Shown here piece by piece: positions 3,277-25,329 of a stretch of 64,000 nucleotides of DNA. Where the stretch lies: assembly GCF_015351245.1 (NCBI RefSeq), contig NZ_JADKSO010000001.1, forward strand, positions 496,001-560,000, given 5' to 3'. The notes beneath the pieces were generated by a model. That model ran no database searches. It had not been told where the DNA came from and saw nothing but the letters and a program-made list of their open reading frames with translations. The stretch is from Rathayibacter sp. VKM Ac-2879. GTDB lineage: Bacteria; Actinomycetota; Actinomycetes; Actinomycetales; Microbacteriaceae. Made by a program: the position numbers and the translations under genes. Every line of letters begins with the position of its first letter. Positions within the stretch are counted from its first letter, which is position 1.

Positions 3277-3565
3277 TCAGGGCTGAGGCTTCACCACGTC
3301 GCCGCGGAGGATCGTCAGGAGGACGACGGCCACGATCGACTCGGATGTGACGAGGGCCGCGAGCACGATGATCGGGAAGGCGCCTGCGGCGACCGGTGAG
3401 AGGCCGCCGAAGCGGGTCGCAACCACGCCGGGCAGGACGACGAGTTCCGTCGTCCTGGTCTGATCGGTCAACGGCACCAGCCCAGCGGATGTCCGTGATG
3501 ACGCCCGAGAGGACCACGGCGAGGAGCGCGAGCTGAGCCGCGCCACGCAGGATCGCCAGCGCCGG
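3277..3565 (-). pseudogene. UPF0014/FetB-like ABC permease remnant with internal deletion
   Basis: Two minus-strand frames together resemble the ends of a FetB-type permease (metal-export ABC systems). Upstream is LAILRGAAQLALLAVVLSGV, like the first helix. After a frame change near 3480 comes LVPLTDQTRTTELVVLPGVV followed by GGLSPVAAGAFPIIVLAALV, like the conserved DQTRTxGLVTLPG segment and last helices. The middle of the protein, roughly 150 residues, is absent and no intact start exists. This is a dead gene with a deletion and frameshift. The family call is from motif memory, so moderate. Confidence 0.45.
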
Positions 3566-16807: not shown

Positions 16808-16947
16808 GCTTCCAGAGTGCCCTGCGCGGACGCCGTTGCCGCCCGCCGGGGCGGTTCGTCTCGGCGTGTCGCCGCCGAACGCCTTATGGCGTGGGCGAAA
16901 GAGGCGAGTTCTGCCGGCCTTGCGTGGCGCTACGACTCTTCAGAGGG

Positions 16948-17018
16948 AGCGAGTGACGGGAATCGAACCCGCGCCATCTGCTTGGGAAGCAGAAGTTCTA
17001 CCATTGAACTACACTCGC
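16948..17018 (-). tRNA. tRNA-Gly (anticodon CCC)
   Basis: The minus strand folds as a complete 71-nt tRNA. The acceptor stem is GCGAGTG/CACTCGC, the D stem GTTC/GAAC, the anticodon stem TCTGC/GCAGA with loop TTCCCAA, and the T stem closes on loop TTCGATT. The discriminator is T and CCA is not encoded. Glycyl-tRNA synthetase is encoded at 32878 in the same window. Confidence 0.97.
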
Positions 17019-17682: not shown

Positions 17683-17745
17683 CCGCGAGATGCCACTTAT
17701 GAGCGCGACACGCCGATGGGCGAGCTCATATGTGGCATCTCGCGG
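17683..17745. repeat. Long inverted repeat between dcd and idi
   Basis: The 22-bp arms 17683-17704 and 17724-17745 are complementary at 21 of 22 positions (core GCGAGATGCCAC ... GTGGCATCTCGC) around a 19-nt loop. It sits between two convergent genes, so it can act as a two-way terminator. Its arm sequence differs from the palindromes at 44070, 45083 and 50288, but its size and placement are alike. Confidence 0.75.
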
Positions 17746-17754
17746 CGGTGAGCC

Positions 17755-18285
17755 TCAGCCGAGGAGGCGCGGCAGCTGCAGCACCAGCCACGGCGAGAAC
17801 GCCCACGGCGTCGCGCGCACCGCCGCGAGCGTCGCCTCGGGGTCGACCCACTCATAGTCCATGACCTCGTCCGCGCGCGGGTCGAGCGCCTCCCGGCTCG
17901 AGAGCGTCGCGGTGTAGACCGGGCAGATCTCGTTCTCGACGACCCCGGAGGCATCGACCGCGCGGTAGCGGAAGTCGGGGAGCGCCAGCTCCAGCGACTC
18001 GAGCCGCGCCCCGAGCTCGCGGTCGGCGCGGCGCGTCACCGCGTCCTCGATCCTCTCGCCGGGGGAGGGGTGGCCGCAGAACGAATTCGTCCACACTCCC
18101 GGCCAGGTGCGCTTCGCGAGCGCGCGTCGGGTGACGAGCAGTGCTCCGTCGGGAGCGAACACGTGGCAGGAGAAGGCGAGGTGCAGCGCGGTCGCGCCGT
18201 CGTGGACCGTCGCCTTGTCGGCTACTCCGATGGCGTCACCGGTCTCGTCGAGCAGCACGACCTGTTCGATCTCATCGATGCGCAC
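17755..18285 (-). CDS. idi: Isopentenyl-diphosphate delta-isomerase, type 1
   Basis: 176 residues from GTG 18285 (GGGAGGA six bases upstream); an ATG 21 bp earlier is less likely. It interconverts IPP and DMAPP for isoprenoid synthesis. The NUDIX-like fold shows LHLAFSCHVF, the catalytic Cys70 in TNSFCGHP, the NUDIX-like helix GERIEDAVTRRADRELG, and the catalytic Glu in ENEICPVY. It is divergent from crtE and supplies precursor to the carotenoid genes. Confidence 0.93.
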   Translation of the reverse strand: MRIDEIEQVVLLDETGDAIGVADKATVHDGATALHLAFSCHVFAPDGALLVTRRALAKRTWPGVWTNSFCGHPSPGERIEDAVTRRADRELGARLESLELALPDFRYRAVDASGVVENEICPVYTATLSSREALDPRADEVMDYEWVDPEATLAAVRATPWAFSPWLVLQLPRLLG

Positions 18286-18380
18286 GGCCGTTCCTCCCGG
18301 AGTCATACCCTCAAGTCAAGCATGCCGCAACACATCAGCCGGCTTATCGTTCGAGAAGTCCCCTTTGTTAGCCTTCCCCC

Positions 18381-19451
18381 GTGGATACGCGCGACTCCGT
18401 GGTTCTGTCCCGGCTGAGGCAGGAGCACGTCGATGCCGTCCTCGACCGCTTCTTCTCGCTGGCGCGGTCCCGGGCCGGTCGATATGGCGAGCGATACCAC
18501 ACGCTGTGGCGCACCCTCGAGGCGAACACGCGAGGCGGCAAGCGCTTTCGTCCCCTCATGGTGATGTCGGCGTACGACGCGCACGGCGGTCACGATGCGG
18601 AGGCGGCGGCGCATCTGGGCGCGGCGTTCGAGCTCCTCCACACCGCGCTCATCGTGCACGACGACGTGATCGACCGCGACTTCGTCCGCCGCGGCAGCCC
18701 GAACGTCTCGGGCAGCTACCGCGACGAGGCCACGACCGCGGGGCTCTCGATCCCCATCGCCGAGCACCGGGGCACCTCGGTCGCGGTGATCGCCGGCGAT
18801 CTCGCGCTCACCGGCGCGCACCGCCTCGTCGAGGGCGTCGGCGCCTCCGACGGCGTGCGCGCCCGGCTGTTGACGCTGCTCGACGAAGCGGTGTTCGCCT
18901 CCGCGGCGGGCGAGCTCGCCGACGTCGACTTCTCGCTCATGCCCGGCATGCCCTCGGTCGAGGAGGTGCTGGAGATGGAGCGGCTGAAGACCGCGGTCTA
19001 CTCGTTCGAGGCGCCGTTGCAGGCGGGGGCGATCCTCGCGGGCGCCGACGATGCGGCGGTCGCGGCGCTCGGCGAATTCGGGCGCTGCATCGGCATCGCC
19101 TATCAGATCGTCGACGACCTCCTCGGCGTCTTCGGCGCGGAGGGGCAGACCGGCAAGTCCACCCTCGGCGACCTGCGCGAGGGCAAGCGCACCGTGCTCA
19201 TCGCACACGCCGCCCAGACCGAGTGCTGGCCCGAGATCGAGGCTCTGATCGGCGACGAGCACCTCGCCGCCGAGACCGCCGAGCGGGTGCGTCGCGTGCT
19301 CGAGGAGTGCGGCGCCCGTCGCTTCGCCGAGCAGCTCGCGAACGACTTCGCCGACCGCGCCTGGGCCGCTCTCGAGACTCCCGCGGTGACGGAGGCGTTC
19401 CGCACCGAAGCACGCCCGCTCGTCGCGAGCGTCGTCGGGCGCACGCGATGA
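18381..19451 (+). CDS. crtE: Geranylgeranyl diphosphate synthase (polyprenyl synthetase)
   Basis: 356 residues. The first Asp-rich motif is DDVID (94-98, HDDVIDRDFVRRG); the second is DDLLG (245-249) in IVDDLLGVFG, with a TGKSTLGDLREGK loop, as in actinobacterial IdsA/CrtE enzymes. It elongates DMAPP with IPP, most likely to GGPP, the substrate of phytoene synthase. It is the first gene of the carotenoid operon. TAGCCT lies 6 nt before the GTG, so the transcript is probably leaderless. Chain length is inferred from context. Confidence 0.93.
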   Translation: MDTRDSVVLSRLRQEHVDAVLDRFFSLARSRAGRYGERYHTLWRTLEANTRGGKRFRPLMVMSAYDAHGGHDAEAAAHLGAAFELLHTALIVHDDVIDRDFVRRGSPNVSGSYRDEATTAGLSIPIAEHRGTSVAVIAGDLALTGAHRLVEGVGASDGVRARLLTLLDEAVFASAAGELADVDFSLMPGMPSVEEVLEMERLKTAVYSFEAPLQAGAILAGADDAAVAALGEFGRCIGIAYQIVDDLLGVFGAEGQTGKSTLGDLREGKRTVLIAHAAQTECWPEIEALIGDEHLAAETAERVRRVLEECGARRFAEQLANDFADRAWAALETPAVTEAFRTEARPLVASVVGRTR

Positions 19452-19521
19452 GCATCGCCCGCCACGCGCGGAGGGGCGCCCCGATGTCGTTCGCTGGGGC
19501 GCGCGCCCGTACGGTGGCACG

Positions 19522-22056
19522 ATGAGCCGGCAGAGCGAGCTGTACGACCGTGTCGCCCATGAGTCGTCCGCGCGGGTGATCCGGCGCTACTCCACCTCCT
19601 TCGGGTTGGCGACCCGGCTGCTGGCCGCCGGAGTCCGGGAGCGCGTCGAGGACGTCTACGCCCTGGTCCGCGTCGCCGATGAGATCGTCGACGGGGTCGC
19701 CGAGGAGGCGCGGCTCGACCGCGAGGCGGTCGAGGAGGCACTCGACGCCTTCGAGGCGGAGACCGAGCGGGCCCTCGCCACCGGTTACAGCTCCAATCTC
19801 GTGATCCACGCTTTCGCGAAAACCGCCAGGGCGACGGGCATCGACGCCGAGCTGACCCGGCCGTTCTTCGCCTCCATGCGCGCTGATCTGCGCGAGACAG
19901 TGCACACGCCCGAGTCGTTCGAGGCCTACGTCTACGGCTCGGCCGAGGTGGTCGGGCTGATGTGCCTCCGGGTGTTCCTCGCGGCCGACGACGCCGGGCT
20001 CGTCTCGGGCTCGTCCCGCGCGCGCCTCGTCGCGGGCGCTCGCCGTCTGGGGGCGGCGTTCCAGAAGGTCAATTTCCTCCGCGACCTCGCCGCCGACGTC
20101 GACGGGCTCGGCCGCAGCTACTTCCCGGGAGTCGATCCGCGCGCCTTCTCGGAGCGCGACAAGGCAGCGCTGCTGGCCGACCTCGACGACGACCTCGAGG
20201 CCGCAGGTGCGATCGTCGCCGAACTGCCCCGATCGAGTCGCCGTGCCGTGCTGCTGGCCCACTCGCTGTTCGCCGCGCTCGCCGAGCGGATCCGCGCGAC
20301 CCCGGCCGAGCGGCTCCTCCGTGCCCGCGTGAGCGTGCCCACGGCGACGAAGGCAGCGCTCGCCGCGAAGGCCGCCGTCTCGACGCTCGGGCCGCGCCTG
20401 GGCCCCGGCCCGGCGAGGGCCGCCCGATCGGCGAACGGGCCGCACCGAGCGGTCGTGATCGGAGGCGGGATCGGCGGTCTCGCCTCCGCGGCGCTCCTCG
20501 CCCGCGATGGCTGGGACGTCACTCTGCTCGAGGCCCGCGACGCTCTCGGAGGCCGCGCCGGCTCGTGGGAGAAGGACGGGTTCCGATTCGACACCGGCCC
20601 CTCCTGGTACCTGATGCCCGAGGTCTTCGATCACTTCTTCCGTCTCATGGGCACGAGCGCCGACGAGCGCCTGGACCTCGTGAAGCTCGACCCCGGTTAC
20701 CGCGTCTACAGCGAGGGCATCGACGAGCCCCTCGACGTGCGCGCCGACCTCGAGGCGAACCTCGCGCTGTTCGAGAGGGTCGAGCCCGGGTCGGGCGAGC
20801 GGATGCGGCGCTACCTCGACTCGGCGCGCGACACCTACGAGGTGGCCAAGCGCCGCTTCCTCTATTCGAGCTTCGCGTCCTTCCTCCCGTTGATGCGCCG
20901 CGATGTACTCCGCCGCACGGGAAAGCTGGGGAAGCTGCTCCTCACGCCGCTCGACACGTTCGCCGCGACCGCGGTGAGCGAGAACCGGCTCCGTCAGATC
21001 CTCGGCTACCCCGCCGTGTTCTTGGGCTCGTCGCCCTTCACCGCGCCGAGCATGTACCACCTGATGAGCCACCTCGACCTGGCCGATGGCGTGCTGTATC
21101 CGAGGGGCGGCTTCACGACCCTGATCGAGGCCGTCGCCGACGTCGCCAAGGAGGCGGGGGTGCGCCTCCGCACCTCCTCGCCCGCCACACGCATCCTCAC
21201 CGCGCGCGCCCCCCGCGGCAGCCGTCGAGGCGCCGAGGTCGTCGGAGTCGAGTTCGCCGGGGCGGACGGCCTCGAGCGTCTCCCCGCGGAACTCGTGGTC
21301 AACGCCTCCGATCTCTTCACGACCGAGCAGTCGCTACTACCGAAGGAGCTGCGCAGTTACCCGCCCGAGTACTGGGAGTCGCGCGAGCCCGGCCCGAGCG
21401 CGGTCCTCGTCTTGCTGGGGGTGCGAGGCGAACTGCCGCAGCTCCAGCACCACACGCTCCTCTTCACGCGGGACTGGCGGGACAACTTCGGCCGGATCTT
21501 CGGCGAGAACCCGAGCGTGCCCGATCCCGCGTCGATCTATGTCTGCCGGCCGAGCGCCACCGACTCGAGCGTGGCTCCCGAAGGGTACGAGAACCTGTTC
21601 GTGCTCGTGCCGATCCCGGCCGACACCTCGATCGGACGCGGAGGGGTGGATGGCGCGGGCGACGCGCGCGTGGAGGCGATCGCTGATTCCGCCATCGAGC
21701 AGATCGCGAGCTGGACGGGTGCCTCCGACCTCGCCGAGCGGATCGTGGTGCGCCGCACCATCGGCCCGGCCGATTTCGAGAGCGACCTCGGCGCCTGGCG
21801 CGGCTCGATGCTCGGCCCGTCGCACGTGCTCTCCCAGAGCGCCTTCTTCCGCGCCGGCAACGTCAGCGCGACGGTCGGCGGGCTGCTCTTCGCCGGGAGC
21901 TCGACCATCCCGGGGATCGGGTTGCCGATGTGCGTGATCAGCGCCGAGGTGATGCTCAAGCGTGTGCGCGGCGACGTGTCGACCGAGCCGTTGCCGGTGC
22001 GCGGAGTGCCCACGCCTCCCGTCGCCCCGCAGGTCGGCGCGCCGGTGGGGGAGTAG
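19522..22056 (+). CDS. crtBI: Phytoene synthase-phytoene desaturase fusion (CrtB-CrtI)
   Basis: A single 844-residue frame with no internal stop. Residues 1-~300 are phytoene synthase: RRYSTSFGLATRLL, first Asp motif DEIVD (53-57), and second DLAAD (188-192) in NFLRDLAADVDGLGRSYFP. A short Ala/Arg/Pro-rich linker (~296-308) leads to residues 309-844, a phytoene desaturase with an FAD site VVIGGGIGGLASAALLARDG, RFDTGPSWYLMPEVFDHFF and the C-terminal GSSTIPGIGLPMCVISAE. It would make phytoene from two GGPP and desaturate it to lycopene. Relatives carry separate, usually overlapping, crtB and crtI. TACGGT lies 6 nt before the ATG. A sequencing indel at the junction cannot be excluded from sequence alone. 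Confidence 0.88.
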   Translation: MSRQSELYDRVAHESSARVIRRYSTSFGLATRLLAAGVRERVEDVYALVRVADEIVDGVAEEARLDREAVEEALDAFEAETERALATGYSSNLVIHAFAKTARATGIDAELTRPFFASMRADLRETVHTPESFEAYVYGSAEVVGLMCLRVFLAADDAGLVSGSSRARLVAGARRLGAAFQKVNFLRDLAADVDGLGRSYFPGVDPRAFSERDKAALLADLDDDLEAAGAIVAELPRSSRRAVLLAHSLFAALAERIRATPAERLLRARVSVPTATKAALAAKAAVSTLGPRLGPGPARAARSANGPHRAVVIGGGIGGLASAALLARDGWDVTLLEARDALGGRAGSWEKDGFRFDTGPSWYLMPEVFDHFFRLMGTSADERLDLVKLDPGYRVYSEGIDEPLDVRADLEANLALFERVEPGSGERMRRYLDSARDTYEVAKRRFLYSSFASFLPLMRRDVLRRTGKLGKLLLTPLDTFAATAVSENRLRQILGYPAVFLGSSPFTAPSMYHLMSHLDLADGVLYPRGGFTTLIEAVADVAKEAGVRLRTSSPATRILTARAPRGSRRGAEVVGVEFAGADGLERLPAELVVNASDLFTTEQSLLPKELRSYPPEYWESREPGPSAVLVLLGVRGELPQLQHHTLLFTRDWRDNFGRIFGENPSVPDPASIYVCRPSATDSSVAPEGYENLFVLVPIPADTSIGRGGVDGAGDARVEAIADSAIEQIASWTGASDLAERIVVRRTIGPADFESDLGAWRGSMLGPSHVLSQSAFFRAGNVSATVGGLLFAGSSTIPGIGLPMCVISAEVMLKRVRGDVSTEPLPVRGVPTPPVAPQVGAPVGE

Positions 22057-22059
22057 CCG

Positions 22060-22401
22060 GTGGGAGTCCTCTACCTGCTCGCGCTCCTCGTCTCGATCAC
22101 GGGGATGGTGGTGCTCGACCGTCGCTTCGGCCTCTTCTTCTGGGCGGACGCACGGCGCGCGGCGATCGTGCTGCCGGTGGGGGTCGCCTTCTTCCTCCTC
22201 TGGGACCTCGTCGGTATCGGCCTCGGCGTCTTCTTCCGCGGCGAGACCTCCTATATGACCGGCCTGCAGCTCGCCCCCGAGCTCCCGATCGAGGAGGTCT
22301 TCTTCCTCACGCTGCTGTGCTACCTGACGATGGACGTGCACGGCTTCCTCGCGACGCGCTCGTCTCGGCGCTCCGGCGCGCGGAGGGAGGCGCGCCGATG
22401 A
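22060..22401 (+). CDS. crtYe: C50 carotenoid cyclase subunit (CrtYe-like, lycopene cyclase domain)
   Basis: 113 residues, three helices, starting at GTG 4 bp after the crtBI stop with GGGGGAG upstream. The motif LPIEEVFFLTLLCYLTM is the PxEExxF core of the CarR/CrtYc-type lycopene cyclase domain. In decaprenoxanthin-type clusters two such small subunits form a heterodimer that cyclises C50 carotenoid ends. It overlaps the next gene by 4 bp (ATGA). Which ring type is made cannot be read from this subunit alone. Confidence 0.85.
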   Translation: MGVLYLLALLVSITGMVVLDRRFGLFFWADARRAAIVLPVGVAFFLLWDLVGIGLGVFFRGETSYMTGLQLAPELPIEEVFFLTLLCYLTMDVHGFLATRSSRRSGARREARR

Positions 22402-22703
22402 CCTATGCGCTGCTCAACGCCGCGTTCCTCGCGGTGGTCCTCGTGCTCCTCCTGGTTGCGCTCCGCCGTCGCACCCTGCTGGCCTCCGCCCTGTTCGGCA
22501 CACTCGCCGTGCTGCTCGTGATGACCGCGATCTTCGACAACGTGATGATCGGTGTCGGCCTGCTCGTCGCCTACGACGACACGCTCATCTCGGGCATTCG
22601 GATCGGCGTCGCGCCGATCGAGGACTTCGCCTACGCGGTGGCCGCCGCTCTGGCCCTCCCGGCGCTGTGGAGCCTCCTGCCCGCGCGACGGAGCGAGCCG
22701 TGA
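22398..22703 (+). CDS. crtYf: C50 carotenoid cyclase subunit (CrtYf-like)
   Basis: 101 residues, three helices, starting at the overlapping ATG (ATGA). The key segment IRIGVAPIEDFAYAVAAALA carries the second-subunit PxEDFxY version of the cyclase motif, and IFDNVMIGVGLLVAYDD is the conserved middle helix. It pairs with CrtYe. It overlaps crtEb by 4 bp (GTGA), so all three are translated together. Confidence 0.85.
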   Translation: MTYALLNAAFLAVVLVLLLVALRRRTLLASALFGTLAVLLVMTAIFDNVMIGVGLLVAYDDTLISGIRIGVAPIEDFAYAVAAALALPALWSLLPARRSEP

Positions 22704-23563
22704 GCCGGCTGCGCGCGCTGTTCGTCTCGAGCCGGCCGCTGAGCTGGGTGAACACGGCGTATCCGTTCGCGGCCGCCTACCTGCTGACCACGCGCGAGGT
22801 CGACCTCGCCTTCGTGCTCGGCACGCTCTACTTTCTCATTCCCTACAACCTCGCGATGTACGGGATCAACGACGTCTTCGACTACGAGTCCGACCTCCGC
22901 AACCCGCGCAAGGGAGGCGTCGAGGGAGCGGTCCTCGACCGGAGCGAGCACCGTGCCACCCTGCTCGCGGCGGTCGTCACGAACGTGCCGTTCCTCGCCG
23001 CGCTCGTGCTGCTGGGCTCGCCCGTCTCGTGGCTCGTCCTCGCGATCAGCGTCTTCGCCGTGATCGCCTACAGCGCGCCGGGCCTGCGCTTCAAGGAGCG
23101 CCCGTTCGTCGACTCGCTGACCTCGGCGACACACTTCGTCAGCCCCGCCGTCTACGGCATCGCCCTCGCCGGCACGACTCTCACCCCCGGCCTCGTCGCG
23201 CTGCTCGTGTCCTTCTTCCTCTGGGGCATCGCGAGCCACGCCTTCGGTGCGGTGCAGGACATTCTGGCCGATCGGGCCGGAGGCATCGGCTCGATCGCCA
23301 CGGTCATCGGCGCGACGGCGACGACGCGATTCGCGATCTGCGCCTACCTCGCGAGCGGAGTGCTCCTCCTCCTGTTGCCGTGGCCGGGGACTCTCGCTGC
23401 GGTGCTCGCCCTGCCCTACGCGGCGAGCATCTGGCCGTACCGCTCACTCGGCGACGCGGAGGCGGAGCGCGCGAACGCCGGCTGGCGGCGTTTTCTCGTG
23501 CTCAACTTCGTGACGGGTTTCTTGGTGACGCTGCTGCTGATCGCCTTCTGGCTCGCGAGCTGA
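22700..23563 (+). CDS. crtEb: Lycopene elongase (CrtEb-like UbiA prenyltransferase)
   Basis: 287 residues, about eight helices. The first UbiA motif is YGINDVFDYESDLRNPRKGG (NDxxDxxxD) and the second is AVQDILADRAGGIGSIATV. In C50 pathways CrtEb adds two prenyl units to lycopene to give flavuxanthin-type products, which CrtYe/CrtYf then cyclise. A GTG overlaps the crtYf stop. It is the last carotenoid gene in the run. Confidence 0.9.
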   Translation: MSRLRALFVSSRPLSWVNTAYPFAAAYLLTTREVDLAFVLGTLYFLIPYNLAMYGINDVFDYESDLRNPRKGGVEGAVLDRSEHRATLLAAVVTNVPFLAALVLLGSPVSWLVLAISVFAVIAYSAPGLRFKERPFVDSLTSATHFVSPAVYGIALAGTTLTPGLVALLVSFFLWGIASHAFGAVQDILADRAGGIGSIATVIGATATTRFAICAYLASGVLLLLLPWPGTLAAVLALPYAASIWPYRSLGDAEAERANAGWRRFLVLNFVTGFLVTLLLIAFWLAS

Positions 23564-23588
23564 GCGGCAAGGAGGCCCCTGTGCGCGC

Positions 23589-23915
23589 CTAGAAGAGGTG
23601 GTGCGGGGCGACGATCAGCACGACGACGAGAGCGAGGCTCGCGAGCAGGGCGACGACGAGGGCCGTATAGCCGAGGCGCTTCGCAAGCTTCTTCGCCCGT
23701 GCGCTACGCGAGCTCGAGCGCTTCTTTCTGACGCGGATCGAGGCGGGGTGCTCGTCGGACGGCCGCGGTGTGGCTGGCATGCCTCCGCTCGCATCGGCCG
23801 TCGGCCACGACGAGGCGGGGCTGGTGACGGGGGCATCGACGGCCGACTCGGAAACGGAGGTGTGCCGCTCCGGTCCTCGGGGCGGGGGGCCTCCTGCGGG
23901 CGGGCGTCGCGCCAT
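23589..23915 (-). CDS. Small tail-anchored hypothetical protein
   Basis: 108 residues from ATG 23915 (GGAGGA upstream). A long, probably disordered Pro/Ser/Thr-rich region is followed by a very basic stretch (IRVRKKRSSSRSARAKKLAK) and one C-terminal helix (YTALVVALLASLALVVVLIV) ending APHHLF. It probably sits in the membrane with the bulk in the cytoplasm. I recognise no family. It converges with crtEb (25-bp gap). Confidence 0.5.
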   Translation of the reverse strand: MARRPPAGGPPPRGPERHTSVSESAVDAPVTSPASSWPTADASGGMPATPRPSDEHPASIRVRKKRSSSRSARAKKLAKRLGYTALVVALLASLALVVVLIVAPHHLF

Positions 23916-23979
23916 GAGGGTCCTCCGTCTCGGATCGGTGTCGCCGACCGGCCATGCTGCTTGCCGCCGCTTGGTCACT

Positions 23980-25329
23980 CTAAGGGAGCGGTGGCTCCGG
24001 CGTCTCGGCTGGCACAGAAGGACGGGTGCTCGGCGGACGAGGCACCGGCAGAAGCAGCACGAGCCCGACGGCGAGGACGAGGAGCAGGCCGAGAATGCCC
24101 CAGTACTGCACGTTCGCGTCGCTGCCTCCCGAGACGGCGGCGGCGATCGAGACGGCCGTCGCGAAGGCGGCAGGCGCGAGGAAGGAGGCGGCCCGCCCCG
24201 TGGTGGCGTAGAGCCCGAAGATCTCGCCCTCCCGTCCCTCCGGGATGAGCCGGGCGAGGTAGCTGCGGCTCGCGGACTGCGCCGGCCCGACGAAGAGGCA
24301 CAGCAGCAGGCCGAAGATCTAGAAGACGGTCGTGCCGCCGTCGTGCAGGGCGAAGACCGCGGTGCCGCAGAGCACCAGTCCGATCAGGGAGGAGACGATC
24401 ACGGCCTTCGGTCCGATGCGGTCGTCGAGGGCGCCGACCGCAATGGTGGCGGCTCCCGCGACGACGTTCGCCGCGATCGCGAAGAGGATGACCTGGCCCG
24501 CGCTGAATCCGAAGGTGCCCTGGGCCAAGACGCCGCCGAAGGTGAAGATCCCGACCAGCCCATCGCGGAAGACGGCGCTCGCCAGGAGGAACAGCACGGT
24601 GGTGCGGCTCTCGCGCCAGAGCCCTGCGATGTGGGCGAACAGGGCGCGATAGGAGGCGATCAGGCCGGTCCGCGTCTCGCGCCCGGCTCGCGCAGGCATC
24701 TCGGGCACGGCGAACAGGACCGGCAGGGCGAACACCGCGAACCAGACCCCTGCGAGCAGGATCGACACCCGCACGTCGAGCCCGTCGGCGCCCGTGACGC
24801 CGAAGAGCCCCACCTCCGGCTGGATGAAGCCGAGGTAGACGATCAGCAGCAGCACGATTCCGCCGACGTACCCCATGCCCCAGCCGAAGCCGGAGACGCG
24901 GCCGATGGTCGCGCGGGTCGAGACTTGCGCGAGCATCGCGTTGTAGTTGACGCTCGCGAACTCGAAGAACACGGTGCCGACGGCCAGCAGCCCGAGGCCG
25001 AGCCAGAGGAACGCCGGGTCGGGGCGGACGAAGAACATCAGCAGGATGCACAGCACGACGACGGCGGTGTGCACGCCGAGCCAGAAGCGCCTCCGGCCGC
25101 CCAGATCCGCGCGCCGCCCGGTGATCGGGGCGATGAACGCGACGACGAGACCGGCGACGGCGAGCGACCAGCCGAGCGCGGCGGAGACTCCACTGGGCGT
25201 GCCGAACAGTCCGTCGGTGGTGAGGTAGACGGTGAAGACGAAGGTGGTCACGACGGCGTTGAACGCCGAGCCGCCCCAGTCCCAGAGACCCCAGGCGAGG
25301 ACGGGCCAGCGGGAGGTGCGCGTCGTCAT
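23980..25329 (-). pseudogene. MFS transporter (UMF1/Atg22-like) interrupted by an in-frame TAG
   Basis: The full frame would be 449 residues and twelve helices. Codons 1-336 read as a normal transporter (WGLWDWGGSAFNAVVTTFVF at the start, the Atg22/UMF1 signature). Codon 337 is TAG, and the same frame resumes with IFGLLLCLFVGPAQSASRSY then LARLIPEGREGEIFGLYATT, the expected helix, to a true stop at 23980. Relatives have Trp at this position (TTVFWIFGL), so one base change TGG to TAG explains it. The protein would lack roughly its last three helices. TACGGT lies 6 nt before the ATG. Confidence 0.8.

Follow-up and report, generated by a model that had tools for sequence, protein, structure and literature searches.

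A conserved fused phytoene synthase and phytoene desaturase gene in an actinobacterial C50-type carotenoid cluster and its probable descent from overlapping genes

In this study, we asked whether a long reading frame in the window, by which we mean the whole 64,000-nucleotide stretch of DNA analysed here, encodes phytoene synthase (CrtB) and phytoene desaturase (CrtI) as a single protein, and how such a fusion could have come about. It is very probable that the frame is a true fused crtBI belonging to a C50-type carotenoid cluster, which would have arisen from an operon of overlapping genes when the linker changed frame and would afterwards have lost the internal crtI start. We infer the bifunctional activities, the single translated product and the order of events from the frame itself, its domains, its conservation, the gene overlap seen in relatives and the frame flip seen in Clavibacter.

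In the list of open reading frames of the window, the frame runs from ATG to TAG with no stop inside it (Table 1). Residues 20–274 of its product match the Pfam profile SQS_PSY (PF00494) with 125.6 bits against a cut-off of 26, covering profile positions 1–261 of 263, and residues 310–826 match the NCBIfam profile crtI_fam (TIGR02734) with 549.7 bits against a cut-off of 238.1, covering positions 1–499 of 504. A sequence-only reading of this DNA had proposed that a complete CrtB and a complete CrtI share one frame, and both are indeed present. The motifs also lie where they had been placed, with the Asp-rich DxxxD motifs DEIVD and DLAAD at residues 53–57 and 188–192, GIGLPM at 798–803 and the FAD-site G-x-G-x-x-G starting at residue 314 (given earlier as about 312). 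The aspartates D53, D57, D188 and D192 are unchanged across 26 fused proteins. By sequence, the CrtI half matches the carotenoid desaturases PDB 4rep and 4dgk, the match to the phytoene dehydrogenase 4dgk spanning residues 311–810, and the CrtB half matches CrtM (8is6). The NCBIfam cut-offs for CrtB equivalogs were not reached (NF045686, 57.0 bits against 550; NF042419, 42.8 against 480; NF045921, 27.7 against 500), and because these scores lie so far below the cut-offs, the naming of phytoene as the exact product of the synthase rests on Pfam, the motifs and the gene context. An AlphaFold2 model based on 26 fused sequences has a mean pLDDT of 71.8 and a pTM of 0.55, which is too weak for reading the packing between domains; its N-terminal half is all-helical, its C-terminal half is alpha/beta, and pLDDT drops below 50 at residues 289–305. 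This model suggests two domains joined by a flexible linker. In such a protein, the CrtB half would convert GGPP to phytoene and, beyond a linker of about 24 residues, the CrtI half would convert phytoene to lycopene, on which CrtEb and CrtYe/CrtYf would then act. Such a protein would be a single product of about 90 kDa and, as had been proposed, might channel phytoene from one half to the other. The gene crtBI is real and conserved, and its enzyme is probably bifunctional.

Table 1. Predicted genes and protein parts of the carotenoid cluster in the window
Feature	Position	Strand	Basis
idi, isopentenyl-diphosphate isomerase, divergent from crtE	17755..18306	-	NF002995 253.4 bits, cut-off 127; TIGR02150
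crtE, prenyl diphosphate synthase, directly upstream of crtBI	18381..19451	+	PF00348 169.6 bits
crtBI, phytoene synthase fused to phytoene desaturase, 844 aa	19522..22056	+	Open frame; PF00494 and TIGR02734 above cut-off; frame in 13/15 genus genomes
CrtB part, residues 1-284	19522..20373	+	PF00494; Asp motifs 53-57, 188-192
Linker, residues 285-308, Ala/Arg/Gly/Pro-rich, without in-frame ATG	20374..20445	+	pN/pS 0.32; pLDDT <50 at 289-305
CrtI part, residues 309-844	20446..22053	+	TIGR02734; FAD site 314; GIGLPM 798-803; PDB 4dgk match
crtYe-like lycopene cyclase subunit	22060..22401	+	TIGR03462 59.1 bits, cut-off 39.4
crtYf-like lycopene cyclase subunit	22398..22703	+	PF18916; TIGR03462 51.1 bits
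crtEb-like prenyltransferase, lycopene elongase type	22700..23563	+	NF009608 471.2 bits, cut-off 217; PF01040

A draw of 398 genomes from the family contained 338 with a match. The eight best matches each form a single frame and share 86–88% identity along their full extent; the ninth-best, with 77% identity, extends past its own final stop. The genus of one of these top matches, that of the nearest relative, is referred to here as the window's genus and is represented by 15 genomes, 13 of which carry an uninterrupted crtBI frame with 77–89% protein identity. In the other two genomes, G434 (L159, L162) and G439 (L160, L161), the two halves are found on separate contigs, each of which stops at the junction. 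The frame stays open as far as the contig end in the two G434 pieces and in the CrtB piece of G439, and the CrtI piece of G439 has a frame break near its contig end. That these assemblies stop exactly at the crtBI junction is perhaps due to poor assembly of the G+C-rich linker. An indel error near position 20430, which the sequence-only reading had named as a refuting observation, is countered by the same fusion in those 13 genomes. Among 12 close sequences, pN/pS is 0.15 for CrtB residues 1–262, 0.21 for 263–284, 0.32 for the linker, 0.20 for CrtI residues 309–826 and 0.51 for the tail (827–844), and the 24 linker codons have 8, 7 and 20 variable sites at the first, second and third position, respectively. 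A ratio of this size, together with third positions that are the most variable, indicates that the linker is read as protein and is under purifying selection. Two more distant members of the genus also keep the frame, L158 with an aligned linker that is 12 residues shorter and L133 with a linker of similarly short make-up.

To place this fusion among its relatives, we considered both named genomes and sample surveys. The named-genome scan gave at least 589 related stretches; among the best 80, ranked in a way that favours single-frame matches, three are fused, namely L001 from Clavibacter tessellarius and L002 and L003 from Kocuria. At the 77 separate loci within this best 80, the two genes overlap by four bases in 68, as ATGA in 46 and as GTGA in 22, and are arranged otherwise in nine; the earlier proposal that relatives with separate genes use a start/stop overlap of the ATG/TGA kind is thus borne out. 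The genus Clavibacter, to which L001 belongs, has the fused gene in 16 of 18 genomes and separate genes in two (G011 = L088 and G016 = L097), both of which keep the ATGA overlap. Kocuria, the genus of L002, is represented by 27 genomes, 26 of them with a match, of which eight are fused and 18 separate. Surveys made with the CrtB half, each a sample of a larger group, gave five fused among 133 matching genomes of Microbacteriaceae, solely from the window's genus and Clavibacter, one among 106 of Micrococcaceae (Kocuria) and one among 52 of the class (Clavibacter). Frames of at least 780 aa were seen in 6/133, 1/106 and 11/52 of these genomes, respectively; considered as further fusions, those of G120 and of ten class-draw genomes outside the three fused lineages proved to be separate genes, and so on inspection did the shorter frames of G682, G505, G200 and G096. 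In the Microbacteriaceae survey, the CrtB matches of G114, G179 and G187 were all broken or partial, too incomplete there to tell fused from separate genes. At one further locus, L166 (G060), the crtI frame shifts soon after the FAD motif, at about 3280–3420, which reflects either a broken crtI or a draft error.

The Clavibacter frames (L001, L081–L098) resemble that of the window in their CrtB–CrtI order and, in the 16 fused genomes, in forming a single frame; however, their linker is a long Pro/Ala/Thr-rich one, with 129–177 nt up to the crtI ATG, and they have kept the internal crtI start that is missing from the window's genus. The AGGAG and the ATG are the same in every genome: all 18 share, without a single difference, the 24 bases 5' of the crtI ATG (AGCAGGAGAGCGCC immediately before the ATG) and the ATGACC itself. 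This includes the two with separate genes, where the same ATGA forms the overlap with the crtB stop. Linker length is 0 modulo 3 in the 16 fused genomes and 2 modulo 3 in the two separate ones, and hence a net change in linker length suffices to fuse or to part crtB and crtI. This contrast of 16 in frame with 2 out of frame is in agreement with the origin proposed in the sequence-only reading, a frame change in the linker. Since the AGGAG and ATG are kept, the fused species could in principle also start CrtI alone, and to judge by these signals they may make both forms, CrtBI and free CrtI. The Kocuria frames (L002, L003, L099–L106) likewise have the CrtB–CrtI order in one frame, in eight genomes, and no in-frame ATG is listed at their junction, as in the window. 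They differ from the window in a very short basic linker and in their family, Micrococcaceae, as well as in their place in the trees.

Trees of fused and separate sequences were built from 153 rows, leaving out the linker, and from 50 rows. Five changes between the fused and separate states are needed on each, of which well supported (starred) branches force at least three with 153 rows and four with 50. In approximately unbiased (AU) tests, a single clade was rejected for both pairings that include Kocuria, at p 1.5e-63 with the window's genus and at p 5e-55 with Clavibacter. The tests did not reject a clade joining Clavibacter to the window's genus (p 0.18) or one made up of just the five fused rows from Clavibacter (p 0.108). 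As the tests reject the groupings with Kocuria and not that of the window's genus with Clavibacter, two origins of the fusion are firm and three are likely. The p value of 0.18 would allow a single old fusion common to the window's genus and Clavibacter, with two Clavibacter species having reverted to separate genes. However, the best trees put separate-gene lineages in between (97* for three separate rows beside Clavibacter), the starred branches force the changes counted above, and the ancestral-type ATGA start is kept in Clavibacter and gone in the window's genus, and we therefore regard a shared fusion as rather unlikely. We favour instead an origin by frame change within the window's own lineage. 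The starting point would have been an operon of the common kind, with a four-base overlap between the end of crtB and the beginning of crtI; a frame change within the poorly constrained linker would next have joined crtB and crtI, and the internal crtI start would have been lost last, in the window's genus. A broader proposal, quite possible in our view but held tentatively, is that CrtB–CrtI fusions have at least three actinobacterial origins (the window's genus, Clavibacter and a subgroup of Kocuria), each from a four-base overlap through a frame change of the fast-changing linker. Clavibacter would then stand half way, with the ribosome-binding site and ATG intact, making both CrtBI and free CrtI as a control on the desaturase-to-synthase ratio, and the window's genus would since have become an obligate fusion.

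The codons around the junction in the window's genus bear on a possible separate start of CrtI. No in-frame ATG occurs between residues 256 and 330 in any of 13 genus sequences. The junction, which had been claimed to be devoid of a start/stop overlap, does have a GTGA at 20455–20458. Its GTG is codon 312, which falls within the strand that opens the FAD fold and is GTG in only 10 of the 13 genus sequences; on both counts CrtI is unlikely to start there. All 14 genus sequences have GTG at codon 272 (20335–20337), the sole all-GTG column among 45 all-Val columns, which is a small and weak hint that it may serve as an internal start; no AGGAG-like site precedes it in the window, and among separate genes GTG is likewise the most frequent codon of this column (62 of 105). 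It could be argued that the frame is fused yet CrtI is mostly supplied as a separate protein, through a start at GTG 272 or GTG 312 or through cleavage of the linker, and that the fusion matters little. The constancy of GTG 272 (13 of 13 genus sequences), a linker predicted to be unstructured from its low pLDDT and the retention of the old crtI start with its AGGAG throughout the Clavibacter genus would all fit such a scheme. Yet in the window's genus neither codon is an ATG or has an AGGAG-like site, GTG 312 falls within the FAD strand and varies across the genus, and the linker holds its frame and evolves as protein, so that we consider a mostly separate CrtI quite improbable and a single CrtBI product the better reading.

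The surroundings of crtBI indicate the pathway in which it would act. The arrangement idi / crtE-crtBI-crtYe-crtYf-crtEb is of the C50-carotenoid type, with NF009608 and TIGR03462 above their cut-offs beside crtE, crtB and crtI. The crtE product itself reached none of the NCBIfam equivalog cut-offs. The downstream genes are joined by four-base overlaps, ATGA at 22398–22401 between crtYe and crtYf and GTGA at 22700–22703 between crtYf and crtEb, the start codons of the crtYf-like and crtEb-like genes being our own choice. A promoter scan of 17700–23800 found no sigma-70-like sites. Nearby, at 16946–17018 on the minus strand, lies a tRNA-Gly (ccc), the sole tRNA of the window. On the other side of the cluster, a minus-strand frame at 23972–25329, presumably a membrane transporter of the MFS type, has at codon 337 an in-frame TAG (24319–24321) that breaks it, and five of five genus relatives (L185–L189) are open across this point; the frame may be a pseudogene or contain a base error. 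This stop, absent from all five relatives, makes a base error or recent mutation in the window conceivable, but that a sequencing or assembly error fused crtB and crtI has next to no chance of being true, as 13 of the 15 genus genomes, assembled separately, share the fusion and the linker substitutions are protein-like.

A bacterial gene of this kind has been annotated before. According to the 2017 Rathayibacter toxicus genome paper, this species has a crtBI annotated as 'bifunctional phytoene synthase/oxidoreductase' (AYW78_09710), within a six-gene cluster of crtEb, crtYf, crtYe, crtBI, crtE and the IPP isomerase gene (PMC5552033), and the sequence-only reading, which named no bacterial CrtB–CrtI, had thus missed a published case. 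That paper gives a cluster identical to that of the window in its six genes and their order; the likeness of the two crtBI genes is one of name and gene order, from which homology of the junction is inferred. R. toxicus has a G+C content of 61.5% (PMC5552033) as against 67–73% in the window (2-kb steps), which makes the window another species; judging by the cluster, it would be a further Rathayibacter. Fusions of phytoene synthase to another carotenoid enzyme are also known as the thraustochytrid CrtIBY and the fungal CrtYB, though these are eukaryotic and have the order CrtI-CrtB-CrtY or cyclase-synthase (PMC10016063). A tridomain CrtB/CrtI/CrtY enzyme engineered in yeast, listed in a table of PMC7322351 with a value of 2.2 that we take as the fold improvement of beta-carotene, has CrtB and CrtI in one polypeptide like the window, but it is artificial and built from fungal enzymes. 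The Clavibacter fusion may already have been noted in Table S2 of PMC2889829, a table of carotenoid fusion proteins. In the main text of open-licence papers, no account was found of the Clavibacter or Kocuria fusions or of tests of any bacterial CrtBI. The crtBI of the window is accordingly a further member of a kind already annotated in print. Of most interest are the recurrence of the fusion and the intermediate stage at which Clavibacter appears to stand.

The three stages seen here, genes with a four-base overlap, a fused frame that keeps the old start and a fused frame without it, show a path from translational coupling to protein fusion. The crtBI genes lend natural support to the idea that phytoene synthase and phytoene desaturase gain from acting next to each other and, if their predicted activities hold, would offer ready-made single-gene parts leading from GGPP to lycopene.
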